64,000 nt of DNA from Fibrisoma limi BUZ 3 (GTDB lineage Bacteria; Bacteroidota; Bacteroidia; Cytophagales; Spirosomataceae). Both the position numbers and the translations under genes were made by a program. Shown one piece after another: positions 40,784 through 62,309 of the stretch. The notes under the pieces were generated by a model that was not told the origin of the DNA, did no database searches, and saw only the letters and a program-made list of their open reading frames with translations. The stretch lies in assembly GCF_000296815.2 (NCBI RefSeq), contig NZ_CAIT01000004.1, forward strand, positions 372,001 through 436,000. The letters are read 5' to 3'. Each line of letters begins with the position of its first letter. The stretch's first letter is position 1.

Positions 40784-42439
40784 TTATTGATTCTGGGTTA
40801 ACAAACGGGGATTGGCATCAATAGCTGGTTGCGGGATGGGAAACAACCGACGCTTCGGGTCTTTGTCGGTTTTCGACGCCCGCGTGTCTTCGTACTTACC
40901 GAACCGGATCATGTCGGTCCGCCGAACCATTTCCCAGTAGAGTTCGTATCCGCGCTCGTTGAACAGCGCATCCAGCGTCAGTTCGTTAGCGGCCAGCAGT
41001 TTGGGGTGTTTGCGGGCTCTCCGCACAGCGTTGACGTCTTCGAGGGCAGCGGCTACGTCTCCCTTGCGGAGTTTGGCTTCGGCCCGCATCAGGTAGATGT
41101 CCGCCAGACGAATCAGGGGCTGGTCAACCCGCGAGTAGTTCCGGCCGTTGGTAGCCCGGGGGTCCACTTCGTATTTGGATACCCGCACTCCGTTGGAGTG
41201 CCCGCTGTTCCGGTCAAAATCAACGGCCACGGAAAAGTCAACTGCTTCGCCGGTCCGGGCCCGGTTGAACAGTTTTTCGATGACCAGTTCGCCGTTGGCC
41301 GTCCGTTTGAATCCGTTTCCGGCGCTGTTGAGCACAATGCCGTACTGCTGCCCCTGCAACAGGCCCCGGTTCAGTCCCCAGCGGCTTTCGGGCACCGACG
41401 TAACGGAGCCGTCCTGCGGAATCACTTCCTTGTAGAAGCGCGGATCGTTGCGGTTGTTCTGCCAGGTGTTCCAGAACTCGGGCGTGATGGAGCCGCCATC
41501 TGTACCCACCGACTGCGGATTGATCAGGCTGAAGTGGTGATTGCGGGCCAGGGCAAACCAGGTGAACCGGCCGCCGTTGTTGGCGTCGTCGCGCTGGTCA
41601 AGCACGAAAATATGTTCCGGATGGTTGTGGTTGTCGAGGTTGAAAATCCGGAAATAATCGGTGGTTTCGAGGGCGTACTGGTTTGAGCTGATGATGCGGT
41701 CGCAGAACTCAATCGTCCTGTTCATATCATCGGCCGGGAACGTGAACGTCGAGGCCGTACGATTTAGGTACACCGCCTTGTTCAAATAGATTTTGGCCTT
41801 CAGCGCCCAGACAGCCCCCTTTGTGAAGCGACCGGCCCCCACCTGGCTTTTGGTTTGGAGCGTGTTCTCGACCGCGTCCAGTTCGCGAAGCAGGAAGTCG
41901 ATAGCCTCCTGCCCCCGGAATACCTGCGACTCGCCCGTACCGGCGCTGATCGAAGCCGGATCGCGGTACAGACACAGGCCAAAGGCATCGAACAGAACGT
42001 AGTTGTAGAACGCGCCCATGGCCCGTGCTTCGGCTCCGTAAAGGGTTGCGTTCGGGTCGTTCAGCGTCTTCAGGGTGCTTTCGGCGATACCCGCCCGGGC
42101 AATGCCTTGCGTCAACTGGTTCCAGACGTTGGCAAGGCTCGTGTGGTTGCTGCTCCAGGTATGCTGGTGCATTTCGATCAGTACCCCACCGTTGTACCAG
42201 TCGGTACCACCCCGGAACGGCACGATGGCCTCGTCCGTAGATACTTCCTGGAGCAGAAAATAATCTTCGTGGCCGTTGAACAAACCGTTCATGCGGGCGT
42301 AGACCGGAGCCAGAATGCCACCGGCTGCGCCGGGTCCCTGCAACAGGTTCGTATTCAGAGCTTCGTCCAGCACTTCTTCTTTCAGGTCGGTGCACCCGAA
42401 CGTCAGTCCGAGCAACATCACAAACAGTATCTTTTTCAT
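40784..42439 (-). CDS. SusD/RagB-type outer-membrane lipoprotein, copy 2
   Basis: 551 residues. Lipoprotein signal MKKILFVMLLGLTFG with Cys16. YNYVLFDAFGLCLYRDP, VWALKAKIYLNKAVYL and YLMRAEAKLRKGDVAAALEDVNAVRRARKH are standard SusD TPR features, and LFNERGYELYWEMVRRTDMIRFGKYE marks the family C-terminal region. It belongs to the RagB branch and differs strongly from the other SusD in the operon, so the two pairs probably recognise different ligands. It starts 18 bases after its susC partner. Confidence 0.9.
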   Translation of the reverse strand: MKKILFVMLLGLTFGCTDLKEEVLDEALNTNLLQGPGAAGGILAPVYARMNGLFNGHEDYFLLQEVSTDEAIVPFRGGTDWYNGGVLIEMHQHTWSSNHTSLANVWNQLTQGIARAGIAESTLKTLNDPNATLYGAEARAMGAFYNYVLFDAFGLCLYRDPASISAGTGESQVFRGQEAIDFLLRELDAVENTLQTKSQVGAGRFTKGAVWALKAKIYLNKAVYLNRTASTFTFPADDMNRTIEFCDRIISSNQYALETTDYFRIFNLDNHNHPEHIFVLDQRDDANNGGRFTWFALARNHHFSLINPQSVGTDGGSITPEFWNTWQNNRNDPRFYKEVIPQDGSVTSVPESRWGLNRGLLQGQQYGIVLNSAGNGFKRTANGELVIEKLFNRARTGEAVDFSVAVDFDRNSGHSNGVRVSKYEVDPRATNGRNYSRVDQPLIRLADIYLMRAEAKLRKGDVAAALEDVNAVRRARKHPKLLAANELTLDALFNERGYELYWEMVRRTDMIRFGKYEDTRASKTDKDPKRRLFPIPQPAIDANPRLLTQNQ

Positions 42440-42457
42440 GGGTTGAGACTGAGTAGA

Positions 42458-45400
42458 TTAGAATGAGACATTTATACCAAGCAGGTAAGTGCGGGCTCGT
42501 GGATAGTTGGTGATATCAATACCGTAGGCAATGATCCCATCGGTATTGGCCGGCACGTTAACTTCGGGGTCGAAGCCTGTGTAGTTGGTGAAGGTCAGCA
42601 GGTTCTGGCCCGTGGCGAACACCGACAGGTTTTTCAGCCAGTTAATCTTCGCCGTGTTGAAGTTGTACCGCAGGGTGGCGTTATTCAGCCGCATGAAATT
42701 GCCGCTCTCCAGGAAGCGGGTCGAGGCCGTGGCGGAGTTGGTATTGCTTTCGTTGGCCGTCACATACGCCTGTGCAATGTTTTGGCCGGATGCCAACTGG
42801 GGCAGATTGAAGTAGGCATTGGCCGTGTTGTTATAGATTTTGTTGCCCGACACCCCGTTGAAATTGACCGACAGATCAAAGCCTTTGTAGCCGACGTTAC
42901 CGTTGAAGTTATAGGTAAAGTTCGGAATGGGCGAACCAGCCACAATCCGGTCGGCGGCACTGATGGTTCCGTCGCCGTTGACATCGCGGAAGGCGTTCAG
43001 ACCGTTTTCATTCAAGCCGGTGAACTCCTGCAGGTAGAACGAAGCGATGGGATACCCGTTCAGGTTACCGCTCACCGTTACGCCCGACAGGCCCGGACCG
43101 CTGATGGAACCGGTACGCAGGAACGAGAAGGGCGCATTCTGCACTTCATTCCGGAGGAAGGTCGCGTTACCGCCCAGTTGCCAGTACACTTTGCTGTTGC
43201 GGGGCGATGCGTAGTTCAGGCCCAGTTCCAGCCCTTCGTTGATCACGTTCATGTCCACGTTCTGCCACCGGCTGCCGGTCGGCGATACGGGATCGGACAC
43301 GGTGATGTTCAGCAGCATATCGCTGGTGTTCTTGTAGAAGTAATCGACTGTACCGGACAGCGCACCACCGAACAGGCCGAAGTCCAGCCCGATGTTGGTC
43401 TGCGTCGTTACCTCCCACTTGATGTCCGGATTAGCCGTCCGCGAGTACGTGTAGCCGGGCGTAATACCGGATTCAGTCAGCGGGTAGCCCTGGCCGTTAC
43501 CGGTACCCGACGTCAGCAGTGGCAGGGTGATCTTGCCGGGAATTTCCTGGTTACCGGTCTGGCCCCAGCCCGCCCGCAGCTTCAGATCACTGACAAAATT
43601 TAAACCCGACAGAAACGCTTCATTCTTGAGCTTCCAGGCGCCCGATACTGACGGGAACAGACCGTAGCGGTTGTTGGCTCCGAACTTCGACGATCCATCG
43701 GCCCGCACCGTGGCCGTCAGCAAGTATTTGTCGGCAAAGGCGTAGTTGACCCGGCCGTAGAATGATTGCAATTCGTTAATACTGGCACTACCCAGGATAG
43801 GATTCTGGCTGATGCTCAGGCTGGTACCGATGCCTGGATTGTAGATGGCGTCGATTTCGCTGGTCGAGAAGTTGTTGATGCTCGACGAGTTGGTCCGCTG
43901 GAAGAAGCGCTGGTACGAATGACCGGCCAGCACATCAAACGTATTGTTCCCGACTGAAAAGGCGTATTTCAGGTAATTTTCAATCAGGTTGCTGGACGAC
44001 TCGTTTTTGGCGAACACCGCCCGGCCTTCCGGGAAATCCAGCTTTGGCAGACCGCTCCGCTTCACCTGCGTTTCGCCGTTGCCGACGCTCCGGTCGATCG
44101 CGAAATTGATCCGGTATTCCAGGCCTTTGATGAGCTTCAGTCGCCCTTCAATGTTACCCAGAACCCGGTCGGTGCGGGCGTAGCTGTCGAACAGCTCCAG
44201 ATCGGCCAGCGGGTTACGACCTTGCGGGAACACAAACAGTGATCCATCGGGGTTGCGCACCGGGTACGTCGGGTTGGCCCCCAGCGCATCCGGAATTAGA
44301 CTGCCCGAGTTGGCTCCGGCGAAGTCGTTGCGCGGAGCGGCCCGGTTGTTTGTATGCCCCGCCGTAAAGTTGACACTCACCCCCAGCCGATCATCCAGCA
44401 GCTTCTGCGTAAAATTGATCCGCCCGGTGTAGCGCTTCAGTTCATTCGTTTTAATAATTCCCTCCTGGTTCAGCAGCGACAGCGATACGTAGTACGTTGA
44501 GTTTTCGGAGCCACCGTTCAGCGCCAGGTTATGGTTCTGCGTGAAAGCCGTGCGGAGAATCTGATCCTGCCAGTCGGTACTGATGTTGCGGTTGTAAATA
44601 TTAGCGGGTCGGTTGTTGGCATCCTGAAACCGGATAAACTCCTCGGCCGTGAGTAGGTCAATCTTATTGGCCACCGTCGATGCGCCGAAGTAATTGGAGT
44701 AGCTCAGGCCCGATTTTTTGGCCGATCCTTTTTTTGTCGTAATAATAACGACACCGTTGGCGCCCCGGCTTCCGTAAATCGCCGTTGCCGACGCGTCTTT
44801 CAGTACGTCTACAGACTCAATATCAGCCGGGTTGATGAAGTTGAGCGGGTTCAGCGGGGCGCTGGAGCCGAAGCCTACGTTAGCCGACCCGGTACTCACC
44901 ACCGAATTGTCGAGCGGTACGCCATCCACCACGAACAGCGGAGTATTACCACTACGGATTGAACCTGGCCCCCGCACAATGATCGTCTGGTTAGCGCCCG
45001 GCTCGCCAGTGTTACCGGTTATATTCACCCCCGACAGCTTACCCTGAATCAGTTGCTCCGGCGAAGTGATGACGCCCCGGTTGAAGTCTTTTTCGCCAAC
45101 CGACCCGATGGCCCCCGTCACGTCGGCCCGCTGCTGAGTACCGTAGCCAACCACTACCACTTCGTTGAGGGAGCGCGTATCGGTCTGCATCGTCACGGAC
45201 AGAACCGTACGTGTTCCCACCGTCACTTCCTGCGTAACGTAGCCGATCGAGCTGAACACCAGCACGGCGTTCTGATTTGGTACGTCGAGCCGGAACTGCC
45301 CGTTGCCATCGGTCGTCGTACCGGTGTTGGTCGATCCTTTCAGGACCACGTTGACACCCGGCAGCCCTTGCCCGGCGTCATCGATAACCCTGCCGCTAAT

Positions 45401-45511
45401 TCCCACAACCGTGCCTGCAAACAAAGCGTGCATAGCCATTCCCTGCAGCACAAAGACAACCATCATTAGTCTTACCAGGTGCATTCGAAATTTTCGTAGT
45501 TGTAAGCTCAT
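42458..45511 (-). CDS. SusC/RagA TonB-dependent transporter, copy 2
   Basis: 1017 residues and the first gene of the six-gene operon. Signal region LVRLMMVVFVLQGMAMHALFA, then a carboxypeptidase-D-like domain (ISGRVIDDAGQGLPGVNVVLKG), TonB box region LNEVVVVGYGTQQRADVTGA, plug with VDVLKDASATAIYGSRGANG, and a barrel ending TYLLGINVSF. It transports a bound ligand across the outer membrane using TonB energy. Upstream is a Pho-box-like promoter shared with the phosphonate genes, so the whole operon is probably induced by phosphate starvation. That inference comes from the sequence pattern alone. Confidence 0.92.
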   Translation of the reverse strand: MSLQLRKFRMHLVRLMMVVFVLQGMAMHALFAGTVVGISGRVIDDAGQGLPGVNVVLKGSTNTGTTTDGNGQFRLDVPNQNAVLVFSSIGYVTQEVTVGTRTVLSVTMQTDTRSLNEVVVVGYGTQQRADVTGAIGSVGEKDFNRGVITSPEQLIQGKLSGVNITGNTGEPGANQTIIVRGPGSIRSGNTPLFVVDGVPLDNSVVSTGSANVGFGSSAPLNPLNFINPADIESVDVLKDASATAIYGSRGANGVVIITTKKGSAKKSGLSYSNYFGASTVANKIDLLTAEEFIRFQDANNRPANIYNRNISTDWQDQILRTAFTQNHNLALNGGSENSTYYVSLSLLNQEGIIKTNELKRYTGRINFTQKLLDDRLGVSVNFTAGHTNNRAAPRNDFAGANSGSLIPDALGANPTYPVRNPDGSLFVFPQGRNPLADLELFDSYARTDRVLGNIEGRLKLIKGLEYRINFAIDRSVGNGETQVKRSGLPKLDFPEGRAVFAKNESSSNLIENYLKYAFSVGNNTFDVLAGHSYQRFFQRTNSSSINNFSTSEIDAIYNPGIGTSLSISQNPILGSASINELQSFYGRVNYAFADKYLLTATVRADGSSKFGANNRYGLFPSVSGAWKLKNEAFLSGLNFVSDLKLRAGWGQTGNQEIPGKITLPLLTSGTGNGQGYPLTESGITPGYTYSRTANPDIKWEVTTQTNIGLDFGLFGGALSGTVDYFYKNTSDMLLNITVSDPVSPTGSRWQNVDMNVINEGLELGLNYASPRNSKVYWQLGGNATFLRNEVQNAPFSFLRTGSISGPGLSGVTVSGNLNGYPIASFYLQEFTGLNENGLNAFRDVNGDGTISAADRIVAGSPIPNFTYNFNGNVGYKGFDLSVNFNGVSGNKIYNNTANAYFNLPQLASGQNIAQAYVTANESNTNSATASTRFLESGNFMRLNNATLRYNFNTAKINWLKNLSVFATGQNLLTFTNYTGFDPEVNVPANTDGIIAYGIDITNYPRARTYLLGINVSF

Positions 45512-46235: not shown

Positions 46236-46955
46236 ATGAAATTTTCAACAATTGTCGTCATCGACGACGAGGAAGATATTCTAGACCTGATCCGGTACAA
46301 TCTCGAAAGAGAGCGAGCTACCGTCCATACCTTTCTGTCGGGGAGGGAAGCCCTGCAGAACATGTACGCTATCCGGCCCGATCTGGTGGTGTGTGACTGG
46401 ATGATGAACGACATTGACGGGCTGGATCTCTGCCGGCTGATGAAACGGGACAACAGTCTGTCGCACATCCCCTTTGTGATGCTGACCGCCCGGGCCGACG
46501 AAATCGATGCCGTAACGGCCCTCGAATTGGGGGCCGATGAATACCTCATCAAACCCATTCGAATTCGCGAACTGATTACCCGCATAAAAAAAATTCTCAT
46601 CCGCACACAACCAGTCCCTTTGCTGCTGGCCGAGCCGGAACCGATAGAAGTAACTCCGGACGACAAGGTTCTTTCGTTCAAAAAGCTCACCATGAACATT
46701 GAGCAGCACCGGGTTCTAATTGATACGGAAGCAATCGACCTGACCTACACGGAGTTTAAACTGCTGCAACTCCTGATCAGCAAACCCGGCCGGGTGTACA
46801 CCCGCAACCAGATCATGGAGAAGGTCAACGGCATGGACTATTTCGCCACGGAACGCTCCATCGACGTGCAGGTGGCAGGGCTTCGAAAGAAACTCGGACC
46901 GTATAAAGACTACCTTGAAACGGTACGGGGCGTGGGCTATCGGATGCAGGAATGA
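46236..46955 (+). CDS. PhoB-like OmpR-family response regulator
   Basis: 239 residues. Receiver domain 1-120 with acidic pocket DDEED, phosphoacceptor Asp54 in LVVCDWMMNDIDG, Thr in MLTARADEID and Lys in YLIKPIR. The winged-helix DNA-binding domain is at about 140-238: IDLTYTEFKLLQLLISKPGRVYTRNQIMEKVNG, RSIDVQVAGLRKKLGPYKDYLETVRGVGYRM. This is the PhoB/OmpR architecture. It lies between the SusCD operon and the phn genes, 93 bases before phnG, which makes it the best candidate to bind the 11-bp repeats. No histidine kinase partner is adjacent. The PhoB name is inferred from family and context. Confidence 0.8.
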   Translation: MKFSTIVVIDDEEDILDLIRYNLERERATVHTFLSGREALQNMYAIRPDLVVCDWMMNDIDGLDLCRLMKRDNSLSHIPFVMLTARADEIDAVTALELGADEYLIKPIRIRELITRIKKILIRTQPVPLLLAEPEPIEVTPDDKVLSFKKLTMNIEQHRVLIDTEAIDLTYTEFKLLQLLISKPGRVYTRNQIMEKVNGMDYFATERSIDVQVAGLRKKLGPYKDYLETVRGVGYRMQE

Positions 46956-47048: not shown

Positions 47049-47477
47049 ATGGAGCAGAACCAACGTACGGACTACATTCTTTGCGAATGCCCGCTCGACA
47101 ACCTGACCAGGTTTGTCAATGACTTATCTGATCGCTATCAACCCAGTCTCCTGAAAGCTCCCCGCCTTTGTCTGACCATGATCCAGGCGGAAGATTCAGT
47201 CGAATACCAGCCTTTTTACCTGGGCGAAGCACTCACCACGACCTGCGAGGTAGCCATCAATGGTAAGGTTGGCTATGGCATCTGTCTCGGCGACGAACCG
47301 GAGCGGGCGTATTGCCTGGCCGTTATGGATGCGGTCATGGCGCTGAACGACGCCCAGGCCCCCGCCATTGACGCTTTTCTGGTCGAACAGGAACGGCTGA
47401 TTCAGCGTCGGGACGAAGACGAGTTCAGCCATATAATGCAGACTAAAGTAGATTTCAAACTGATGGAGCAGTCCTGA
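47049..47477 (+). CDS. phnG: C-P lyase complex subunit PhnG
   Basis: 142 residues, close to the usual length of about 150. FYLGEALTTTCEVAINGKVGYGICLGDEPERAYCLAVMDAVM is the conserved core of PhnG, and the end EDEFSHIMQTKVDFKLMEQS matches the family's closing ASRVDF-type motif. With PhnH, PhnI and PhnJ it forms the core complex; together with PhnI it attaches phosphonate to the ribose of ATP in place of adenine. First gene of the C-P lyase run, 22 bases before phnH. Confidence 0.9.
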   Translation: MEQNQRTDYILCECPLDNLTRFVNDLSDRYQPSLLKAPRLCLTMIQAEDSVEYQPFYLGEALTTTCEVAINGKVGYGICLGDEPERAYCLAVMDAVMALNDAQAPAIDAFLVEQERLIQRRDEDEFSHIMQTKVDFKLMEQS

Positions 47478-47499: not shown

Positions 47500-48111
47500 A
47501 TGATACGGGAAACTTCTTACGACGAGGTCTTCGACGCGCAGACGCATTTCAGGCTTATTATGGACAGCATGGCGCGGCCGGGCAAACTCAACGTACTCAA
47601 TGGGGTAGCCATTCAGCCACCCGATTCCCTCAACCGGGCGTCGGCGCTGATCGGTCTGGGGCTGCTTAACGCCGACGTGTCTTTTTTTGTCGCCCGGAAC
47701 GCGACGGCCATTACCACCTACTTTACGGTGAATACGGCCTCGCGACCAGCCCCGGCCGCCGAGGCCGACTTTCTGTTCCTGCACGGAAACGACAGTCCGC
47801 AGCACCTCGACGCGGCTAAACCCGGCACACTCACTTACCCTGATACGAATGCGTTTGTGATCATCGACGTAGCCAGTATCAGCCTGCATCCCGATCAAAC
47901 GACCGAACCCCGGCTCCAACTGACCCTGTCGGGACCGGGCGTAAACGGGCAGCAAACCGTGTTCGTTGCTGGCCTGAACGAAGCCCTGCTGACAACACTG
48001 CGCGACAAAAATGCAGAATATCCGCTGGGTATTGATACGATCCTGACCGATCAGAACGACCAAATTTTGTGCATTCCACGATCTAATCGGTTTGTGGTGG
48101 GTGGTTTGTAG
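47500..48111 (+). CDS. phnH: C-P lyase complex subunit PhnH
   Basis: 203 residues. The start FDAQTHFRLIMDSMARPGKLNVL is the PhnH signature (compare DAQ-FR-LM-AMSRPG). The C-terminal half contains LTLSGPGVNGQQTVFVAGL and YPLGIDTILTDQNDQILCIPRS, also typical. PhnH is a PLP-fold structural subunit without PLP in the core complex. The last codons, RFVVGGL and stop, lie inside an intergenic repeat element, so the tail of the protein has been shaped by that repeat. Confidence 0.9.
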   Translation: MIRETSYDEVFDAQTHFRLIMDSMARPGKLNVLNGVAIQPPDSLNRASALIGLGLLNADVSFFVARNATAITTYFTVNTASRPAPAAEADFLFLHGNDSPQHLDAAKPGTLTYPDTNAFVIIDVASISLHPDQTTEPRLQLTLSGPGVNGQQTVFVAGLNEALLTTLRDKNAEYPLGIDTILTDQNDQILCIPRSNRFVVGGL

Positions 48112-48258
48112 TTAGTGGGTGGTTTGTGGTTCGTGGTGAGTGGTTTGTAGTTGTCGGACGGCTATGCTTATTGGCCAGCGAAACACTACGAACTACAAAC
48201 CACTCACCACAAACTACACCACCCCCTACAAACCACCCACCACGAACCGCAAACCAAA
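48090..48258 (+). repeat. Intergenic inverted-repeat element, copy 2
   Basis: The left part repeats GTGGTTTGTAGTT-like words about five times (48093-48155); the right part repeats the complement, ACTACAAACCACC-like (48182-48255). The core between them holds TATTGGCCAGCGAAACA. It fills the gap between phnH and phnI and includes the last codons of phnH. The single strand could fold into a long imperfect hairpin in the phn mRNA. Confidence 0.7.
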
Positions 48259-48265
48259 AACGACC

Positions 48266-49489
48266 ATGGGTTACGTTGCCGTCAAGGGAGGGACCGAAGC
48301 CATTGCCAACTCGATTGATCTTGTTGAGTTTTACCGGATAAAAGACGAAACGCCCCCCATCCACATCAAACAGTTGCAGGCGCAGTTCCGGCTGGCTATT
48401 GACAAGATCATGGGCGAAGGCTCCTTCTACGCGCCTGAATACGGAGCCCTGGCCCTCAAGCAGGTGGAAGGGGATGTGTTCGAAGCTGCGTTTATCATGC
48501 GGGCGTTCCGGGCAACGCTGCCCCGCATGTATTACTCAGCGGTAATTGACACCCGAAACATGTTCGTTCAACGGCGGATTTCGTCGTCGTTTCGGGATAT
48601 TCCCGGCGGACAGGTACTCGGCCCAACCTACGATTATACCCAACGTATCATCGACACCCGCCTGGCCGACGAAAGTTACGAGCAGGTGCAGGCGTTTCTG
48701 GAGCAGTTCAAAGCCCGAATCAGCGAAACCGACCGGAAAGCCGTCACAACGTTCGGCAAAGTCATCGACATGCTTCGCGCCCAGGGGTTGCTCAAAGGCG
48801 TCGGCAACCGGGACGACGAATCGGAGGAAGGTCGCCGACTGGTCGACATCACCCGCGAGGCCATTAAGTTTCCGGCCCCCCGCTCCGCCCGGCTCCAGAT
48901 GCTGGCACGGGCCGAAACGGGCGGCATCATGGCCCTCGGCTACAGCAGCATGCGGGGCTACGGCGGGGTTCACCCAACCGTGGGCGAACTTCGGGTCGGA
49001 CTGGTTGAGGTGAACGTTGCTGACCCATCAGGCCGCAGCCGCTACATTGGCCGCATCCGGGTGACCGAAGCCGAGATGATTACCAAAGCTAAAACCGGCA
49101 AAAAGTCGGAACGTAGTGCGGGCTCGGTACCGTACTACGCCATCGGCTACGGCCTGTGCTTCGGCCAGAACGAAACCAAGGCGATCTGCATGGGGATTCT
49201 GGACCGGGCCATGCGAAACGGCACGAAAGACGCCCCGGCCAATGACCAGGAGTTCGTGCTGTACCATACCGACGGTATTGAGGCTATGGGTTTCACAAAC
49301 CACCTCAAGCTGCCCCACTACGTTACGTTCCAGTCGGGACTGAACAACGTGCGCCGGGCCGTTGCCAAAAGCAAAAAGAAAACGGAGGCCAAACCCACGT
49401 CACCGACGTCAACCCCGGCCAACGGCGCATCCGGGCCATCGGCCGGGGATGCCGAGCGTATGCCAACCGAAGTCCTGACCGAACTATGA
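48266..49489 (+). CDS. phnI: C-P lyase complex subunit PhnI
   Basis: 407 residues from the start MGYVAVKGGTEAIANSIDLV, the conserved opening of PhnI; upstream in-frame codons belong to the repeat element. The body matches PhnI throughout (FIMRAFRATLPRMYYSAVI, SFRDIPGGQVLGPTYDYTQRIID, GIMALGYSSMRGYGGVHPTVGELRVG, LPHYVTFQSGLNNVR). PhnI swaps adenine for phosphonate on ATP, together with PhnG, H and L. E. coli PhnI has 354 residues; most of the extra length here is a C-terminal tail of about 45 residues, Lys-rich then Pro/Thr/Ser-rich and probably disordered. The stop overlaps the phnJ start (ATGA). Confidence 0.92.
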   Translation: MGYVAVKGGTEAIANSIDLVEFYRIKDETPPIHIKQLQAQFRLAIDKIMGEGSFYAPEYGALALKQVEGDVFEAAFIMRAFRATLPRMYYSAVIDTRNMFVQRRISSSFRDIPGGQVLGPTYDYTQRIIDTRLADESYEQVQAFLEQFKARISETDRKAVTTFGKVIDMLRAQGLLKGVGNRDDESEEGRRLVDITREAIKFPAPRSARLQMLARAETGGIMALGYSSMRGYGGVHPTVGELRVGLVEVNVADPSGRSRYIGRIRVTEAEMITKAKTGKKSERSAGSVPYYAIGYGLCFGQNETKAICMGILDRAMRNGTKDAPANDQEFVLYHTDGIEAMGFTNHLKLPHYVTFQSGLNNVRRAVAKSKKKTEAKPTSPTSTPANGASGPSAGDAERMPTEVLTEL

Positions 49490-50418
49490 TCCCGACGTTC
49501 AAAAAATTCGATACGCAGTTCAATTTCGCCTTCATTGATGAGAATACAAAGCGCGAAATCCGGCGGAAACTCCTGAAAGCCATCTGCATACCGGGCTACC
49601 AGGTGCCGTATTCGTCGCCCGAAATGCCCATTGCGCGGGGTTGGGGAACGGGCGGCCTGCACGTCACGCTGTCGGTGATCGGCAAAGACGACCGCTTCAA
49701 AATTATCGATCAGGGCAGCGACGCCAGTGTGAACGCCTGTAACCTGCGCGATTTTGTACACCGGGTCACCCACTGCCGCGTCACCTTCGATACGCACGAA
49801 GCTACGTTGATTCAGACCCGCCACCGGATACCGGAAGAGCAGTTGAACGACGGCCAGATTCTGGTGTTTCAGGTACCCCAGCCCGAGCCGCTGCGGGCTG
49901 TGGAGCGCTACGAAACCAAAACCCGCGAGATGCACGGCGAAGCCGATTACGCCCGGATGTGGGTGTCGCTCTACGAAGCCTTTGTTCGCTACGGCGATAT
50001 CATGCAGGGAGCGGGCTACCCGGTGATGGTCAACGGGCGGCACATCATGTCGCCTTCGCCCATTCCCCGCTGGGACGTTCCGAACCTGAACCAGAGCGAC
50101 TGTTTGTACCTGTTCGGCGCGGGCCGGGAGAAACGACTCTACGCCGTGCCCCCCCACACGGACGTTGTTCCCCTTGAGTTTGAGGACGTCAAGTTTCGGA
50201 TTGAGCAGTTTTCCGGCATTCGCTGCTCGATGTCGGGCACGGGGGGCGCATTTATGGACGAACTCTACAACGACCTCGGCGACTTCCGGCACGTGATCAA
50301 CGACAGCGACTTCCTCGACAAGCTGGTCGAACGCAAAACCCGCCCGCAGCAGTGGTCGAACAAGTATTTGCAGGAGGTGCTGGATGAGATGAACGCTAAT
50401 ACTGACCCGCAACCATGA
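49486..50418 (+). CDS. phnJ: C-P lyase catalytic subunit PhnJ, lacking canonical Fe-S cysteines
   Basis: 310 residues, clearly PhnJ: FAFIDENTKREIRRKLLKAI, CIPGYQVPYSSPEMPIARGW, WGTGGLHVTLSVIG, ATLIQTRHRIPE, REKRLYAVPPHTDV. The glycyl-radical glycine is kept (Gly37, E. coli Gly32). E. coli uses Cys241, Cys244 and Cys266 for the 4Fe-4S cluster and Cys272 as thiyl radical. Aligned by eye from memory of the E. coli sequence, the matching residues here are Cys247, Ser250, Ile271 and Leu277. So only one of four remains, in IRCSMSGTGGAFMDE and HVINDSDFLDK. Other cysteines are at 34, 85, 97 and 206. The reading frame is intact and the rest well conserved, so this looks like a variant enzyme and not decay. 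It overlaps phnI and phnK by 4 bases each. Confidence 0.93.
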   Translation: MIPTFKKFDTQFNFAFIDENTKREIRRKLLKAICIPGYQVPYSSPEMPIARGWGTGGLHVTLSVIGKDDRFKIIDQGSDASVNACNLRDFVHRVTHCRVTFDTHEATLIQTRHRIPEEQLNDGQILVFQVPQPEPLRAVERYETKTREMHGEADYARMWVSLYEAFVRYGDIMQGAGYPVMVNGRHIMSPSPIPRWDVPNLNQSDCLYLFGAGREKRLYAVPPHTDVVPLEFEDVKFRIEQFSGIRCSMSGTGGAFMDELYNDLGDFRHVINDSDFLDKLVERKTRPQQWSNKYLQEVLDEMNANTDPQP

Positions 50419-51263
50419 CCAACCTATCCGATAACTGGCTGCTCAAAGTAGAGGGGCTGACCAAGATTTACGGCGAACCCAACGAAAACTCCGTTCGGCT
50501 GACGGGCCCGCTGTTCGGCTCCAACATCTGCCCCGAAACGGACAGCATCGTGGCCTGCGCCGACATTAACCTGGAGTTGTTTCCGGGCGAAGTGCTGGGG
50601 GTCGTCGGCGAAAGTGGCTCGGGCAAAAGTACGGTAGTGCGCCTGCTGTACTTTGATCTGGAAAGCACGGCGGGCGTGGCTTACTTCAACCAGTACGGCA
50701 ACGGCGCCATCAACATCCTGAACGAGTCCAGCCAGAAAAAGCGCTTCATCCGCAACCACCTGATGGGCATGGTGTACCAGAACCCGAAAGACGGCCTGAA
50801 CTTCCGGTTTTCGTCGGGGGGCAACATCGCGGAGAAGCTGCTGATGGCCGGCAATTTCAACGTCGGCCGTATCCGCGAACGCGCCACCGAACTGCTGGAA
50901 CAAACCGAAGTACCCGTCCGGCGTCTGGACGACAGCCCGGCCAGTTTCAGCGGGGGTATGCAGCAGCGGGTGCAGATTTCCAAGGCCATCGCCAACAACC
51001 CACCGCTGCTCTTTCTGGACGAAGTCACGACCGGACTCGACGTATCGGTACAGGCCAAAGTGCTCGATATGATTCGCACGCTCCAGCAGGAACTGGGTAT
51101 CGCCATGATTGTGGTATCGCACGACCTGAGCGTCATCCGGATGCTCACCGACCGGACCATCGTGATGAAAAACGGGCGTATTGTCGAGCAGGGCCTGACC
51201 GATCAGATTCTCCAGGACCCCCAGCATCCGTATACGCAATTACTGGTCAGCTCGCTCTTGTAA
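50415..51263 (+). CDS. phnK: C-P lyase complex ATP-binding protein PhnK
   Basis: 282 residues with an ABC ATPase core: Walker A GESGSGKST (65-73), Q-loop in VYQNPKDGLN, signature FSGGMQQRVQ, Walker B LLFLDE and switch His in VVSHDLSVI. The N-terminal insertion between the first strand and Walker A (about residues 20-50) and the dipeptide-transporter-like C-terminus QHPYTQLLVSSLL are typical of PhnK. PhnK binds the PhnGHIJ core through PhnJ and is not a transport ATPase. The 4-base overlap with phnJ supports tight co-translation. Confidence 0.9.
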   Translation: MTNLSDNWLLKVEGLTKIYGEPNENSVRLTGPLFGSNICPETDSIVACADINLELFPGEVLGVVGESGSGKSTVVRLLYFDLESTAGVAYFNQYGNGAINILNESSQKKRFIRNHLMGMVYQNPKDGLNFRFSSGGNIAEKLLMAGNFNVGRIRERATELLEQTEVPVRRLDDSPASFSGGMQQRVQISKAIANNPPLLFLDEVTTGLDVSVQAKVLDMIRTLQQELGIAMIVVSHDLSVIRMLTDRTIVMKNGRIVEQGLTDQILQDPQHPYTQLLVSSLL

Positions 51264-51388: not shown

Positions 51389-52108
51389 ATGCCCCCCATC
51401 CTCGACGTCCGGCACTACACCAAGCGATTTGACATGCACGTATTGAATGGCAAACGCATCAACGCGCTCACCAACGTTTCGTTCAGTCTGGAGCCGGGCG
51501 AAATCGTGGGGCTGGTCGGGAAATCTGGCTCCGGGAAGTCCACCCTGATGAAAAGCATCTACCGGACGTATCTGGCCACCAGCGGGGCGATTTACTACCA
51601 GTCGCTGCGCTACGGGCCGATCGATCTGGTACGGGCCACCGACCACCAGATCATTGCCCTGCGACGCGACGAAATCACCTACTGCTCGCAGTTTCTGAGT
51701 GTAATCCCCCGGGTATCCGCTGCCGATGTGGTCGCCGAAGGCTTGTTCCGCCGGGGTGCTGGGCGGACTGAAGCTTGGCACCAGTCGCGCGACTACCTTG
51801 ACCGGCTGGGGCTTCCTCAGGAGCTCTGGGATGCGTACCCATCGACTTTCAGCGGGGGGGAACAGCAGCGCATCAACGTAGCCCGCGCTATCATTGCCCG
51901 CCCACGGCTGCTGCTGATCGACGAGCCGACGGCCTCGCTGGATCAGCGGACGAAAGATGTGGTGATCGACATGATCATAGCTCTGAAAGCAGAAGGGACG
52001 TCGGTGCTGTGTATTTCGCATGATCTTTACACCCTCGACCGGCTGGCCGATCGACGGATCGAACTTAAAGATGGTCACATTGTAGCTACCACCTCACCTG
52101 TGAGTTAA
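51389..52108 (+). CDS. phnL: C-P lyase system ATP-binding protein PhnL
   Basis: 239 residues. ABC ATPase motifs: Walker A GKSGSGKST (44-52), Q-loop region TYCSQFLSVIPRVSA, signature FSGGEQQRINVARAI, Walker B LLLIDEPTASLD and His in CISHD. PhnL is typically 225-240 residues, and SQFLSVIPRV is a PhnL-type motif. It works with PhnG, H and I in forming ribose-phosphonate triphosphate. Separated from phnK by an inverted-repeat element, it may be expressed at a different level from the genes before it. Confidence 0.9.
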   Translation: MPPILDVRHYTKRFDMHVLNGKRINALTNVSFSLEPGEIVGLVGKSGSGKSTLMKSIYRTYLATSGAIYYQSLRYGPIDLVRATDHQIIALRRDEITYCSQFLSVIPRVSAADVVAEGLFRRGAGRTEAWHQSRDYLDRLGLPQELWDAYPSTFSGGEQQRINVARAIIARPRLLLIDEPTASLDQRTKDVVIDMIIALKAEGTSVLCISHDLYTLDRLADRRIELKDGHIVATTSPVS

Positions 52109-52130: not shown

Positions 52131-53309
52131 ATGCTTCTCTACAACGCCAGTATCGTCACCCCCAAAGGACTAATCCGAAACGGCTATGTACACCTGTCAG
52201 GGGGAAAAATCATGACCATTGGTAAGGGCAGTCTCGACTACCTTTCGGTTAAAGATGCCATCGATGCACAGGGCAAATGGTTGTTGCCGGGACTTATTGA
52301 TCTGCATACCGATGCCATTGACGCCGAGATTTCGCCCCGTCGGAGCGCCGACTTCCCGATCGACGTAGCGTTTCGCGAACTCGAACGGCGCATGAGCGGC
52401 TGCGGCATCACAACGGTCTACCATTCCCTGCATTTAGGGTATACCGCAGCCGAACTCAATGCCCAGAGCAAATACAGCCGGCGGGAGATTTTTGACCGGG
52501 TGTACGCCCTTACCCGGCAGCGAACCCTGATTAACAACAAAATACACCTGCGCTTTGAGCTAACGGGTATCGACGCGTTTGAAACTGCCTGTGACCTAAT
52601 CGAAAAAGGCTGTATCGATCTGCTTTCGGTTATGGATCACACACCGGGGCAGGGGCAGGTCAGCGTTGATAGTTTCATCCGGATGGCCGTTCGGCAGGGG
52701 ATGTCGGAGGCTGAGGCCCGGCAGGACCTGGCCGAAAAACAGGCCGCCCCAATCCTGCCCACGAACCAACTTGACATTCTGCTTGATTTAGCCCGCAGCC
52801 GCTCAGTAGTTGTGGCATCGCATGATGACGACACGGCTCAGAAGGTGGATGACATGTACGCAGCCGGAATCCGTATCTGTGAATTTCCGGTATCGATGGA
52901 AGCGGCCCAACGCGGCAAGGAACTGGGTATGTACGTTATCGGCGGCTCATCGAACGTGCTGCGGGGGGGCTCTCTGTCGGGCAACCTCGGCGTTGAAGAA
53001 GCCATCCGGGCGGGGGTTATCGATAGTCTCTGTTCGGATTATTACCCCCCTTCGTTGCTTCATGCGGTGTTCCGGCTGGCGGCCAATGGCATGGCACTCA
53101 CCGAAGCGGTTAAACTCGCAACCCTGCACCCGGCGCAGGCCGTCGGCATCGATTCGATGACGGGTTCCATCGAAACGGGCAAGCAGGCTGATTTGATTCT
53201 GGTGGACGTATCCGAAAGCACGCCCATTGTTACCCATACGTTTGTGAACGGCCACCTGGTCGCGCAGGCGAATCTGCAACCTCAACCCGAACCCGCATGG
53301 CAAGCCTAG
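52131..53309 (+). CDS. phnM: Ribose-phosphonate triphosphate diphosphatase PhnM, copy 1
   Basis: 392 residues, amidohydrolase fold. WLLPGLIDLHTDAIDAEISPR carries the first metal-binding motif (HTD in PhnM in place of HxH). Later motifs are VMDHTPGQGQ, VVASHDDDTAQKVDDM, EFPVSMEAAQRGKELGMYVIGGSSNVLRGGS and SLCSDYYPPSLLHA, all typical of PhnM. The enzyme removes pyrophosphate from ribose 1-phosphonate 5-triphosphate to give the PhnJ substrate. The last 13 bases overlap the next gene. A second phnM lies at 59223. Confidence 0.9.
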   Translation: MLLYNASIVTPKGLIRNGYVHLSGGKIMTIGKGSLDYLSVKDAIDAQGKWLLPGLIDLHTDAIDAEISPRRSADFPIDVAFRELERRMSGCGITTVYHSLHLGYTAAELNAQSKYSRREIFDRVYALTRQRTLINNKIHLRFELTGIDAFETACDLIEKGCIDLLSVMDHTPGQGQVSVDSFIRMAVRQGMSEAEARQDLAEKQAAPILPTNQLDILLDLARSRSVVVASHDDDTAQKVDDMYAAGIRICEFPVSMEAAQRGKELGMYVIGGSSNVLRGGSLSGNLGVEEAIRAGVIDSLCSDYYPPSLLHAVFRLAANGMALTEAVKLATLHPAQAVGIDSMTGSIETGKQADLILVDVSESTPIVTHTFVNGHLVAQANLQPQPEPAWQA

Positions 53310-54109
53310 ACACGTCGGCGGTCGCCGAACTGACGTACCACGAATACCAGCAACGGCAACTCCGGGAAGTTACTGAAGATCAGCTTCGGTACCGGGCCGG
53401 GCAGCTCCGGAAAGCCGACCATTTTGCGTATGTAGGCGGCCAATGGCACCACCTTCCCTACGAAGGTTACGCCGTCGTTTCGATGGTGGATACCAATCCG
53501 GGCAACGACGATGTGAGCCCCCGATTGCGTGCGATGCAGGGGCAGATAGCGACCGGCTTCGACCGACCCGATGCGTTTTTCCCGCTGCCCGCCGACAGTT
53601 TCCACCAGACTGTCGCCAATACCCTGTCCGCCGAGCGGTACCATGCTCACGTAGTAGCCGCCGGACTGACCAACGAATACCCGGCACTGGTGAGCGGGGC
53701 GTTTGCCCAACTGCCGCAGGCCACCGAGGCCACCCCGATCCGGATGCGTCTGGTCGGGGTGAGTCTGTTTTCCAGCGCGGTGGGGATACTGGGAACATTC
53801 GATGAGGAGCGTGACTTCGACCGGATTCTCCGGTTTCGGGAGCAGTTCTACGCCGACGAACCCCTCCGCGCCCTGACCGTTCGGCGCACCCGGCCGTTTA
53901 TCGGGCACATTACGCTGGCTTATTTCGGCTCTTTGCTTTCCGAAGCCGAAAAAAAACGGTTAATCAGCACCTGTGCGACGATCAATGACGCCCTGAACCG
54001 CGAACCCCTGTTTTTTACCGTATCGACAACCGAATTACGCAGCTACCAGCATCTGGCTCATTTCGAGACCAGGCCTGGCTACCCCGTGTATTCATTTATC
54101 AAGTCCTGA
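53297..54109 (+). CDS. 2H phosphoesterase (DUF1868-like), possible PhnP substitute
   Basis: 270 residues. Two HxT motifs mark the 2H phosphoesterase superfamily: HQT at 103-105 (PADSFHQTVANTL) and HIT at 204-206 (RPFIGHITLAYFG). The family opens or cleaves cyclic phosphates and 2',5' links. DUF1868-like spacing fits. In E. coli the cyclic 1,2-phosphate product of C-P lyase is opened by the metallo-beta-lactamase PhnP; no such gene is in this window. This gene overlaps phnM by 13 bases and precedes the hexapeptide transferase by 3, so it is part of the pathway operon. I infer it replaces PhnP; no direct proof. Confidence 0.8.
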   Translation: MASLDTSAVAELTYHEYQQRQLREVTEDQLRYRAGQLRKADHFAYVGGQWHHLPYEGYAVVSMVDTNPGNDDVSPRLRAMQGQIATGFDRPDAFFPLPADSFHQTVANTLSAERYHAHVVAAGLTNEYPALVSGAFAQLPQATEATPIRMRLVGVSLFSSAVGILGTFDEERDFDRILRFREQFYADEPLRALTVRRTRPFIGHITLAYFGSLLSEAEKKRLISTCATINDALNREPLFFTVSTTELRSYQHLAHFETRPGYPVYSFIKS

Positions 54110-54112
54110 CGT

Positions 54113-54769
54113 ATGCTCCTAGCCATCGACCGTTTTCCCGAAGACCCCGAACCGGCGGGTGGAAAACTCCTGAGCGAAGAACCGACCATCCATCCAACCT
54201 GCCGGATTCATAAGAGCCAGGTGGGTAGCTGGACAGCCCTCGGGCCTCATACCACGCTTTCCGAAGCAACGTTCGGCGATTACAGCTACACGGCCGGTCA
54301 TGTGTCTATTATCTACGCCGACATCGGTAAGTTCTGCTCTATCGCCAACAGTTGCCGCATCAACCCCGGCAACCACCCGCAGTGGCGCGTAACGCAGCAC
54401 CACAGCACGTATCGCCGGATTCAGTACGGTTTCGACACCGTCAACGACGAAGCATTTTTCGACTGGCGCCGGGAGCACCGCTGCACCATTGGCCACGACG
54501 TCTGGATTGGTCACGGGGCCATCATCATGCCGGGGGTTCGGATCGGGACGGGGGCAGTTATCGGCAGCGGGGCTGTAGTCACCAAAGACGTCGGGCCGTA
54601 CGAGGTGGCGGTCGGCGTTGCGGCAGCGGTTATTAAAAAACGATTTCCGGACGATGTCATCGAGAAACTCCTGGCTATTGCCTGGTGGGACTGGGACCGC
54701 CCGACCCTCGAAGCGCGCTTCAAGGATTTGTTGGACGTGCCCTCATTTCTGGAAAAGTATAGCCAATGA
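54113..54769 (+). CDS. Phosphonate-associated hexapeptide-repeat transferase
   Basis: 218 residues, left-handed beta-helix. Hexapeptide repeats run through residues 25-70 and again through [37 protein letters not shown] (about 125-160). [19 protein letters not shown] and [16 protein letters not shown] between them match the transferase family regularly found in C-P lyase operons (TIGR03308 type). The acceptor is not established; acetylation of aminophosphonates is a reasonable guess. It lies 3 bases after the 2H phosphoesterase and closes the enzyme operon. Confidence 0.85.
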
Positions 54770-54829: not shown

Positions 54830-54886
54830 GTTAACGATTTCATCACAGCATCCTAACTTTTTAAACAAATGCCCCGGCTATTTTTA
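54830..54886 (+). promoter_or_regulatory. Pho-box-like promoter of phnD
   Basis: GTTAAC (54830), CATCAC (54841) and CCTAAC (54852) stand at 11-base steps. The next register (54863, AAACAA) is degenerate. Ten bases after it comes TATTTTTA (54879-54886), 7 of 8 to TAnnTTTG. Transcription would start near 54893, 30 bases before the phnD start codon chosen here; the alternative start at 54869 would lie upstream of the transcript. Confidence 0.5.
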
Positions 54887-54922
54887 ACAATCGGTAAGCG
54901 TAACCTCTTACTTCCTACTGCA

Positions 54923-55840
54923 ATGAAAACAGGGTGGTCAACCCTACTGGTTTTTGTGCTGGCCGGAGGATTGCTGGCCGGTTGCGGCCGTTCAGAAGAC
55001 CAGTCTGACAGTAATCCGGAGAAGCTCCGGTTTGGGCTGTTGGTTGCGCAGGAAACCGAGCAGACATATGAGCGGCTGGACGTCCTGACGAAATACTTCG
55101 CCAAACAACTAGGGCGGGAGGTGGAGTTTTTGCAGATAACAACGCCCTCGGCCATGATTGAGGCTATGCGGGCCCGAAAGATTGAGGTCGCGGGGGGCAC
55201 CGGCGCGTTTACGTATCTGGTTGCTTCGAAGGTGATCGGGGCCGAAGCCATTGCCACTACCACGGCTGCCGACGGGAACGTACGTTACTACAAAAGTTGC
55301 CTGATCACGAGCCCTAACTCGGGCTTACGATCCATTGATGACGTCATAAAAAATGCCGGTAATATTACGCTATCCTGGGCGTACCCTACATCTACATCGG
55401 GTCACCTGGTTCCTCGCTACTACCTACAGAAACGTGGCATAAAACCACAGGATTTTAAGGAAGTATTTACGTCCACCGATCACACCGCTACCCTGTTCTC
55501 GGTCGCGTCTGGCAAGGTCGACGTAGCTGCGATCATGTACGCTACCCTTGATCGATTCATGAAGACCGGTAAGGTAAAGCCCGGTGCTGTTCGGGTTATC
55601 TGGGAATCGGAGCCGATTGCACCGGGTCCGATATTTGTCCGGAAGGATCTGGACCCGGCTTTGAAAAAACAGATCCAGCTAGCCTACACGAACGTAGCGA
55701 AAGCTGACCCCGACGCTATGGAGGCCTTACAGTCACAGTTTACCTATAGCATGAGCTATATTCCCGTTACGGATTCACTATACCAGTCACTGCGACAGAT
55801 GGCCAATCAGATTGAAGGACTTACTCTGAAAGAAGAATGA
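54923..55840 (+). CDS. phnD: Phosphonate ABC transporter substrate-binding lipoprotein PhnD
   Basis: 305 residues from MKTGWSTLLVFVLAGGLLAG with Cys21, a lipobox, so a membrane-anchored binding protein. The mature part LRFGLLVAQETEQTYERLDVLTKYFAKQLGREVEF, then VAGGTGAFTYLVAS and FTSTDHTATLFSVASGKVDVAAIMY, follows PhnD-type binding proteins. The frame is open to 54869, but that start would precede both the signal peptide and the predicted promoter start. It delivers phosphonates, or phosphate or phosphite, to PhnE. Confidence 0.88.
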   Translation: MKTGWSTLLVFVLAGGLLAGCGRSEDQSDSNPEKLRFGLLVAQETEQTYERLDVLTKYFAKQLGREVEFLQITTPSAMIEAMRARKIEVAGGTGAFTYLVASKVIGAEAIATTTAADGNVRYYKSCLITSPNSGLRSIDDVIKNAGNITLSWAYPTSTSGHLVPRYYLQKRGIKPQDFKEVFTSTDHTATLFSVASGKVDVAAIMYATLDRFMKTGKVKPGAVRVIWESEPIAPGPIFVRKDLDPALKKQIQLAYTNVAKADPDAMEALQSQFTYSMSYIPVTDSLYQSLRQMANQIEGLTLKEE

Positions 55841-55883: not shown

Positions 55884-56564
55884 ATGAAATTACTGCTGAT
55901 CTCTAACTTTAGCGACATCCCCAACGAGCACTACGTCCTAAATCTGCTGTTCTGCGAGGGACTGCGCTATTTCCATCTGCGCAAACGCGATTATACGATC
56001 CACCAGATGGCCAACTACATTGAACAGATCGCCGAGCCGTTTCGCCAGTATGTTGTCCTGCATTCCCACTTCGAGTTGATCAATGAATATGGCTTAAAGG
56101 GCGCTCATTTTACCAAAAAGTTCGGCTATGACGATTACCTGCTCAGCCGAAAGCTTCCCTCAGACTCTCCTTTGGCATTTGAACACCTCAGCTTTTCGTT
56201 GCACTCGATTCCAGAGATCAAGCGGATGCCTGTTTTTTACGACTACCTGTTCCTGAGTCCGGTTTTCGATAGTATTTCCAATCAGGGATATAACAGTAAG
56301 TTCAGGACGCAGGAGCTAAAAAGCTTCCTGACACAGAAAACCAACCGACCGGAGGTAATCGCCCTCGGGGGAATTACGGATGAAGTCGTCACCAGTGTGT
56401 TCGATACCGGATTTGACGGGATGGCGTTGCTCGGCTACATCTGGACAACATTCGAACGAACCCAAGACATTGTTCAGGCGGTTAAACGATTTAAAACCAT
56501 TAAAAATCTGATTCGCACCCGAGAAGAGGCTACGGCGCTTTCGTTAGCGGCTTCGAGAGAATAG
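55884..56564 (+). CDS. ThiE/TenI-like TIM-barrel protein
   Basis: 226 residues. FHLRKRDYTIHQM, YVVLHSHFELINEYGLKGAHFTKK, LSFSLHSIPEIKRM, YDYLFLSPVFDSISNQGY and VIALGGITDEVVTSVFDTGFDGMALLGYIW follow the thiamine-phosphate synthase / TenI fold step by step. The phosphate-binding loops are present. It sits between phnD and phnC, an unusual place for a thiamine gene, and no other thi gene is nearby. Either a stand-alone TenI/ThiE paralogue or a phosphate-sugar-binding enzyme adapted to this pathway; I cannot decide. Confidence 0.75.
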   Translation: MKLLLISNFSDIPNEHYVLNLLFCEGLRYFHLRKRDYTIHQMANYIEQIAEPFRQYVVLHSHFELINEYGLKGAHFTKKFGYDDYLLSRKLPSDSPLAFEHLSFSLHSIPEIKRMPVFYDYLFLSPVFDSISNQGYNSKFRTQELKSFLTQKTNRPEVIALGGITDEVVTSVFDTGFDGMALLGYIWTTFERTQDIVQAVKRFKTIKNLIRTREEATALSLAASRE

Positions 56565-56659: not shown

Positions 56660-57445
56660 ATGATAGAGGTTCGACAGATCACGAAATCGACGAAAGAGGG
56701 GGTGCCTATCCTGAAGGGTATCAGCTTCACCATAACCAAAGGCGAATTTGTCGGCATACTGGGTCCGAGTGGCGCCGGTAAGACGCTGACCATGCGATGC
56801 CTCAACGGACTCACCCGACCCACCAGCGGTGAAGTCCTGTTTACCGACCACCAGAATAACCTCGTCAATCTGACGCATGCTAAAGGCCGTGAGCTTCGAA
56901 AGGCACGTCGGCAGATCGGGGTGATTTTCCAGGGGTTCAACCTGGTGAAACGTCTGTCAGCGATTGATAATGTCATGATCGGTCAGCTCGGACGTATTAA
57001 CCTGTTGCGCAGCCTGTTCTATGGCTTTACTGACGACGAGGCCATGCGTGCGCTGGCCGTGCTTGAGCACCTTAAAATAGCCCACCTGGCTCAGCGCCCG
57101 GTCGGATCGCTGAGCGGGGGCGAACAGCAGCGGGTAGCCATTGCCCGCGCCATCTACCAGCAGCCGTCTGTGATGTTGGCTGACGAACCCATTGCGAACC
57201 TAGATCCGACTAACGCCCGAAAAATCATGCAGATTCTCAAGCCGCTGGCTGAGCAGATGCCAATTATCGGGGTTTTTCATCAGCCTGATCTGGTTATGGA
57301 GTTCTGCACTCGGATTATTGCGCTTAAAGATGGTGTGGTGGTTCGCGACGGCGATAATAAGATGACACGCAGTGAACTGATTGATCTCTACGGGGCTGAA
57401 CTTTCAGAAATTGAAGCGTCTCAACGAATTCTACAGCCTGTCTGA
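56660..57445 (+). CDS. phnC: Phosphonate ABC transporter ATPase PhnC
   Basis: 261 residues. Walker A GPSGAGKT (35-42), IGVIFQGFNLVKRLSAIDNVMIGQLGRI (Q-loop and a PhnC-type stretch), signature SLSGGEQQRVAIARAI, Walker B VMLADEPIANLDP, and IGVFHQPDLVMEFCTRIIALKDG with the switch His. It energises phosphonate uptake through the two PhnE subunits that follow. Its stop codon overlaps the first phnE start by one base. Confidence 0.92.
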   Translation: MIEVRQITKSTKEGVPILKGISFTITKGEFVGILGPSGAGKTLTMRCLNGLTRPTSGEVLFTDHQNNLVNLTHAKGRELRKARRQIGVIFQGFNLVKRLSAIDNVMIGQLGRINLLRSLFYGFTDDEAMRALAVLEHLKIAHLAQRPVGSLSGGEQQRVAIARAIYQQPSVMLADEPIANLDPTNARKIMQILKPLAEQMPIIGVFHQPDLVMEFCTRIIALKDGVVVRDGDNKMTRSELIDLYGAELSEIEASQRILQPV

Positions 57446-58254: not shown

Positions 58255-58305
58255 TTAACCCTGTAATGCTTGCGGTTCAACTTGTCAGCTAACCTCTTTC
58301 GCTCT

Positions 58306-59140: not shown

Positions 59141-59186
59141 TCTCATGCACCCCTAATCTGTCCCTAACAAACGGACTTCACCTTTG
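59141..59186 (+). promoter_or_regulatory. Pho-box-like promoter of the second phnM
   Basis: TCTCAT (59141), CCTAAT (59152) and CCTAAC (59163) at 11-base steps, then 10 bases and CACCTTTG (59179-59186), 7 of 8 to TAnnTTTG. The start codon at 59223 is 36 bases further; a TTG start at 59184 would overlap the -7 element and is excluded on that ground. Confidence 0.6.
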
Positions 59187-59222
59187 GCTGTCTTTTCCGA
59201 ACGTTTGCTCTTGCCCAACTGT

Positions 59223-62269: not shown

Positions 62270-62309
62270 AACGCGCTCGAGCGATAACAGATTTTCGTGT
62301 GAGTTCAAG

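Follow-up and report, generated by a model that had tools for sequence, protein, structure and literature searches.

Can a C-P lyase work when its PhnJ lacks most of the cysteines on which the enzyme is thought to depend? PhnJ is the enzyme behind the aerobic release of methane from methylphosphonate, and a main route by which phosphorus is obtained from phosphonates and from some herbicides. In the Escherichia coli protein, we take Cys241, Cys244 and Cys266 to be the ligands of a [4Fe-4S] cluster, with Cys272 presumably forming the thiyl radical and Gly32 the glycyl radical. The cluster and the thiyl cysteine on which this mechanism depends lie about 30 Å from the radical glycine; the 30 Å between Gly32 and the cluster site are unchanged during ATP-driven opening of the complex (PMC9947105), and the conflict is described as unsolved, as confusing and as needing more work (PMC7916636, PMC9947105). 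A preliminary description of 64,000 nucleotides of the Fibrisoma limi BUZ 3 genome (hereafter the window, numbered from its first nucleotide) claimed a PhnJ without most of these residues.

The phnJ open reading frame was intact, as had been claimed, with 310 codons for amino acids and an ATG overlapping the phnI stop codon. Its product is a full-length match to the PhnJ family (PF06007, 416 bits for a cut-off of 25, positions 2-272 of 275). Alignment with the E. coli protein by phmmer (7z15_D/4xb6_D) paired C241 with C247, C244 with S250, C266 with I271 and C272 with L277; the same four pairings were obtained when 53-77 other PhnJs were aligned with it by MAFFT. The residues and the codons TGC, TCG, ATC and CTC (Table 1) are those announced by the preliminary description. 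The three cluster cysteines thus read C-S-I at 247/250/271 and the thiyl cysteine is Leu277; Gly32 is retained as Gly37, and is present in all 78 PhnJs that we compared. No second PhnJ, canonical or other, was found in the F. limi genome (7.6 Mb, 99.99% complete). Judging from its sequence, the PhnJ of F. limi cannot form the canonical PhnJ-borne radical-SAM cluster. The PhnJ of F. montanum (locus L006), 94% identical, shows the same loss. As the loss of C266 and C272 is common to this species and to all members of the sub-clade V1 described below, it can be ascribed neither to chance nor to a sequencing error.

Table 1. Features of the phn region of F. limi (window coordinates)
Feature	Position	Strand	Basis and remarks
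Alkaline-phosphatase-superfamily-like protein	39400-40746	-	apparent
SusC/SusD-like pair	40784-45511	-	apparent
PhoB/OmpR-type response regulator	46236-46955	+	Pfam Response_reg and Trans_reg_C; upstream of phnG
phnG	47049-47477	+	PF06754, TIGR03293; six Cys
phnH	47500-48111	+	PF05845, TIGR03292
phnI	48140-49489	+	PF05861; Zn-site His219/328/333 retained
phnJ	49486-50418	+	without four-Cys site (C247, S250, I271, L277); Gly37, Arg112, His113, Gln129 retained
Codons of former four-Cys site	50224-50316	+	DNA and alignment
C247 TGC	50224-50226	+	former four-Cys site codon
S250 TCG	50233-50235	+	former four-Cys site codon
I271 ATC	50296-50298	+	former four-Cys site codon
L277 CTC	50314-50316	+	former four-Cys site codon
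phnK, ABC ATPase	50415-51263	+	TIGR02323; Walker A, signature and Walker B intact
phnL, ABC ATPase	51389-52108	+	TIGR02324, motifs
phnM, first copy	52131-53309	+	NF011990, TIGR02318
LigT/2H-type phosphoesterase	53297-54109	+	PF02834; recurs in variant operons
Hexapeptide transferase of phn operons	54113-54769	+	TIGR03308
phnD, phosphonate-binding protein	54869-55840	+	PF12974
Thiamine monophosphate synthase-like	55884-56564	+	
phnC	56660-57445	+	ABC_tran
phnE1	57445-58254	+	BPD_transp_1
phnE2	58270-59124	+	BLASTP matches to phnE genes of relatives (loci comparison)
phnM, second copy	59184-60395	+	TIGR02318, NF011984
phnN-like	60703-61251	-	45% to E. coli PhnN
Endonuclease/exonuclease/phosphatase-family protein	61475-62308	-	near phnN

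The cluster of F. limi holds phnGHIJKLM together with the phosphonate transporter genes phnCDE, and contains two phnM genes. The true start of phnI probably lies near 48266 (MGYVAVKGG). The LigT/2H-type phosphoesterase is the probable substitute for PhnP and would open the cyclic phosphate. In the other loci with a cluster-less PhnJ, phnGHIJKLM, transporters and accessory genes were likewise intact where the contig allows, and the recurrent extras were the PhoB-like regulator, the LigT-type phosphoesterase, the hexapeptide transferase and the endonuclease/phosphatase-family protein. Clustering of unlabelled ORFs placed a relative of the regulator at 17 variant loci; it mostly lies directly upstream of phnG, and at one locus it is on the opposite strand. 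The endonuclease/exonuclease/phosphatase-family protein recurs in 9 variant loci, F. limi included, and may act in the pathway as a phosphodiesterase. Relatives of the thiamine monophosphate synthase-like gene, which in F. limi sits between phnD and phnC, adjoin phn genes in L006, L010-L012 and L027. Two further features, called by reading the sequence, are divergent to the phn operon: an apparent SusC/SusD-like pair and a protein resembling the alkaline-phosphatase superfamily. Genes for large outer-membrane receptors border the phn operons of L012, L013, L015 and L020 as well, those of L020 being of SusC/SusD type by Pfam.

The loss proved to be widely shared. Among the 78 PhnJs, 41 are cluster-less: C266 and C272 are absent from every one of them and C244 from 40, and their sources span five phyla (Bacteroidota, Verrucomicrobiota, Acidobacteriota, alphaproteobacteria and Thermus thermophilus HB8). 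It had been envisaged that other residues fill the cluster positions. This was not the case, since C266 is replaced by I/V/L, C272 by L/G/M/A and C244 by S/T, with a single Cys; His, Asp or Cys as replacement ligands were thus rejected. C241 is the sole invariant cysteine of the 78 PhnJs, and D268 is also present in all of them. In a single scan, 84,980 species genomes yielded 26 PhnJ loci, 23 of which, mostly from Bacteroidota, Opitutales and Bryobacteraceae, carry a motif of the type NDS(N/D)F(L/M) in place of CSDTDYC. These 23, F. limi and three loci from a further genome search constitute sub-clade V1 (n = 27), in which the alignment shows C266 and C272 absent in 27/27, C244 absent in 26/27 and C241 present in 27/27. 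All four cysteines were found in 27/27 canonical control PhnJs. The cluster-less protein is the only PhnJ in F. limi and in 22 of the 23 V1 genomes searched, the remaining genome having an extra truncated copy. The phn genes are scarce in Bacteroidota, with three matches in a set of 149 genomes of relatives and one, F. limi itself, in a sample of 395 genomes of the phylum; the two sets overlap, and all matches are of V1 type.

A second cluster-less group, V2, occurs in alphaproteobacteria. An intact second PhnJ of this type was detected in 7 of the 126 phn-positive genomes of one order; all seven lack C244, C266 and C272 and keep C241, and all seven genomes also hold a canonical-scoring PhnJ and phn operon. 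PhnJs of V2 type were also found on plasmids of Microvirga, Mesorhizobium, Sinorhizobium, Nitratireductor and Haematobacter, and a third cluster-less form in T. thermophilus HB8 (plasmid pVV8) and SNM1-1. Several side observations were made on these loci. Canonical and cluster-less operons (L060/L065, L100-L106) are sometimes about 20 kb apart in one alphaproteobacterial genome. A truncated second PhnJ is present in one Bacteroidota MAG (L067, G539:C25:29311-29771), and the cluster-less PhnJ of one alphaproteobacterium (L107) is frameshifted. Two contigs look misassigned: L020, labelled Beijerinckiaceae, because of its SusC/SusD-type genes and of a PhnJ that falls among those of Chitinophagaceae and Sphingobacteriaceae, and L011, labelled Bacteroides fragilis, because its PhnJ groups with those of Bacteroidetes MAGs. 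No report of a PhnJ without these cysteines was found in the non-subscription literature searched, and the novelty of the loss is therefore provisional.

The rest of the active site is retained. G32, loop 47-50, R107, H108 and Q124 (E. coli numbering) are identical in 27 variant and 27 canonical PhnJs. The CIPGYQVPY motif, which had been described as kept, is not conserved as a unit, Cys34 being present in only 12/27 V1 proteins; its PG.Q.P part is invariant in all 78 PhnJs, together with Gly32 and one cysteine. The histidines H219, H328 and H333 of the PhnI zinc site are found in 25/25 variant and 27/27 canonical proteins, as well as in the Thermus and rhizobial operons, and the Walker motifs of PhnK and PhnL are retained in variant operons. 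In E. coli, the PhnI zinc site binds a product-like cyclic phosphate (PMC9947105, PMC7916636), and in cryo-EM structures this ligand and the Zn ion are held by the PhnI histidines and R107/H108/Q124 (PMC9947105).

Cluster-less PhnJ is under strong purifying selection. The dN/dS of phnJ was 0.061 between F. limi and F. montanum and 0.005-0.039 in six other pairs, and that of its C-terminal domain was 0.03-0.15. A dN/dS of 1.5 for phnI was discarded as a probable alignment artefact, since a stop codon preceding the true start would put the codons out of register. With complete genes, retained active-site residues and this selection, the operon does appear functional, as the preliminary description had it. 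In a PhnJ tree built without the C-terminal domain, V1, V2 and Thermus each formed one strongly supported group. All cluster-less PhnJs fell on one side of a branch with moderate support (92/65; 90% of bootstrap trees; one state change), and a single loss of the cysteines is favoured over two. The nearest canonical PhnJs were those of Thermodesulfobacteriota/Myxococcota, haloarchaea and Methylibium. A PhnI tree, made by a quick method and with long branches, also gave one group each for V1, V2 and Thermus; its canonical set needs two changes, and the case for the complex having been inherited as a unit is thus not firm. Outside the C-terminal domain, the positions separating cluster-less from canonical PhnJs are concentrated in or next to the PhnK-binding insertion (127-172, E. 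coli numbering).

The limit case is T. thermophilus HB8, a strain in standard laboratory use. Four PhnJs (HB8, SNM1-1, Mesorhizobium AR07 and Sinorhizobium B11) have no cysteine besides the C241 equivalent, and in HB8 PhnG, PhnH and PhnI have none either, which leaves a single cysteine, C243 of PhnJ, in the PhnGHIJ protomer; PhnK and PhnL have one each. A cysteine-ligated [4Fe-4S] cluster is thus impossible in the HB8 core complex, and a branch-wide alternative Fe-S site in PhnGHIJ, with at least three conserved cysteines, was rejected on the same count.

Zinc-ribbon-like domains commonly lose their metal, with hydrophobic residues taking the place of the ligands. The AlphaFold2 model of F. 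limi PhnJ (mean pLDDT 76) had, along its length, the fold of the E. coli protein (4xb6_D/7z19_H; TM 0.86-0.87 by target with Foldseek), and its C-terminal domain was modelled without metal ligands at a pLDDT of 84-95. The former metal site was modelled as a beta-hairpin and a helix, with aliphatic residues at two ligand positions and an added C-terminal helix. The control model of a canonical PhnJ was poor (pLDDT 66) and was left out of the comparison.

Taken together, we regard one conclusion from the alignments as safe: in a large branch of C-P lyases, PhnJ cannot carry the radical-SAM cluster described for E. coli. Its members are predicted still to be C-P lyases, and this is likely because the substrate site, the ATPases, the upstream and downstream enzymes and the transporters are retained. 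On balance, we lean towards a complete and selected C-P lyase whose PhnJ lost its C-terminal four-cysteine metal site and which would cleave the C-P bond without a PhnJ-bound cluster. The C-terminal domain would fold as a metal-free beta-hairpin and helix, phosphonate would still be loaded onto ribose by PhnGHIL, and PhnM would trim the loaded ribose-phosphonate before C-P bond cleavage releases the phosphorus. Cleavage would proceed without a PhnJ-bound [4Fe-4S] cluster and use parts common to every PhnJ, namely the Gly32 loop, Cys241 as the one invariant cysteine, and the metal site formed by His219/328/333 of PhnI opposite Arg107/His108/Gln124 of PhnJ. The reaction may be radical, with a radical from another protein or cofactor, or non-radical; if a PhnJ cysteine is catalytic throughout the branch, it must be Cys241 and not Cys272. 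More tentatively, and with clearly less confidence, we suggest that no PhnJ-borne radical-SAM cluster is needed anywhere in the branch, with cleavage at the PhnI/PhnJ Zn-His site together with Gly32 and Cys241, and that the canonical four-cysteine site is structural or regulatory.

Several points speak against the preferred reading. The biochemistry of Kamat and Raushel reportedly found the cluster cysteines and C272 of E. coli PhnJ essential. Essential roles are also assigned to them in a review (PMC7916636). A cluster-less homologue could therefore fail to cleave the C-P bond by that chemistry. Also, the occurrence of V2 beside a canonical operon is as compatible with another function as with use under another condition, and support for the joint cluster-less clade is only moderate.

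We consider it unlikely that the radical is outsourced, as in pyruvate formate-lyase, to a separate radical-SAM enzyme encoded elsewhere, which would activate Gly37 while Cys247 carries the thiyl. The invariance of Gly32, its loop and one cysteine agrees with this, as does the reliance, to our knowledge, of all classical glycyl-radical enzymes on a separate activase. Radical-SAM domains were matched 15 times in the F. limi genome, 4 of the matches being shared with Fer4_12; none of the 15 lies within about 100 kb of phnJ. No classical glycyl-radical enzyme (PF01228) was found in this genome, and a spare activase of the corresponding type is thus not expected. The preliminary description had proposed a separate protein supplying the radical chemistry; no ORF with CxxxCxxC or CxxCxxCxxxC was detected in the 26 variant neighbourhoods, in which, beyond the response regulator and the endonuclease/phosphatase-type protein, no unlabelled family recurs widely. 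Also, in E. coli a distance of 30 Å separates Gly32 from the cysteine site of the C-terminal domain (PMC9947105), which is far for a radical transfer to Cys247.

Slightly less credible still is a complex that leaves unactivated C-P bonds alone and performs another reaction on phosphonate-like substrates, for example those with an already activated C-P bond. The coexistence of cluster-less and canonical operons in the same alphaproteobacterial genomes would suit such a role, and the many group-separating positions in the PhnK-binding insertion and the C-terminal domain suggest that regulation or chemistry may differ. Nevertheless, the residues binding the ribosyl substrate and PhnG/H/I/K/L/M are retained, phnCDE accompany the operon, and in F. 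limi and nearly all V1 genomes searched the cell has no other PhnJ.

A new Fe-S or metal site in V1, built from newly fixed cysteines of PhnJ (C85, C97), PhnG (C14, C41, C66, C79, C89), PhnI and PhnK, seems very improbable. C85 of PhnJ is present in 27/27 V1 against 0/27 canonical proteins, C79 of PhnG in 24/24 against 0/5, and an N-terminal cysteine of PhnK in 25/25 against 1/26, but these cysteines are absent from Thermus and most rhizobial relatives, and those of PhnG were lost independently within V1 (few remain in L009 and L027). A new cluster held by the PhnG cysteines was rejected on these grounds, as they were lost piecemeal in V1 and are absent in HB8. The several cysteines newly fixed in V1 PhnG, PhnI and PhnK and C85 of PhnJ are not all-or-none. 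Cysteines 34, 85, 97 and 206 of PhnJ, which had been put forward as substitutes, do not hold as a general solution: C97 is found in 22/27 and C206 in 14/27 V1 proteins, and all four are missing from the related Thermus, Mesorhizobium and Sinorhizobium PhnJs in which only the C241 equivalent is present. The earlier interpretation is thus partly supported. Finally, a decaying or mis-sequenced phnJ, to which the loss of residues called essential and one frameshifted alphaproteobacterial copy might point, is refuted by a loss common to 41 sequences of five phyla, intact frames and a dN/dS of 0.005-0.06.

These data imply that the textbook C-P lyase mechanism cannot apply to all members of the family. 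A natural branch without the cluster site and with all else retained offers a direct test of the 30 Å problem between Gly32 and Cys272, and T. thermophilus HB8 carries the cluster-less form at its simplest, with one cysteine in the core. If no PhnJ-borne cluster is needed, the canonical four-cysteine site would not be the source of the catalytic radical. Also, surveys of phnJ that depend on the four cysteines, or on primers for this part of the gene, would overlook or misinterpret the members of the branch.

Among known systems, pyruvate formate-lyase and PflA provide a working analogy for activation in trans, with a glycyl radical, a cysteine thiyl and the cluster on another protein; unlike them, PhnJ has no PF01228 domain, no detected homology and no operon-encoded activase. 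With the E. coli Phn(GHIJ)2 core (PDB 4XB6, 7Z15-7Z19), F. limi shares the family, the fold, the operon core, the Zn-His site, the substrate-binding residues, the Gly32 loop and the PhnK/PhnL ATPases. It differs in that PhnJ lacks C244, C266 and C272 and keeps C241, in a C-terminal extension of about 25 residues, in a diverged PhnK-binding insertion, and in a LigT-type phosphoesterase where no PhnP was found in the cluster. A further parallel is the phn operon of HB8 pVV8; the carriage of phosphonate genes by this plasmid is published (PMC5529391, citing Ohtani 2012). The HB8 operon, complete as phnCDEGHIJKLM, is cluster-less and keeps the C241 equivalent like that of F. limi, from which it differs in lacking C85 and the PhnG cysteines of V1, the C241 equivalent being its sole PhnJ cysteine.
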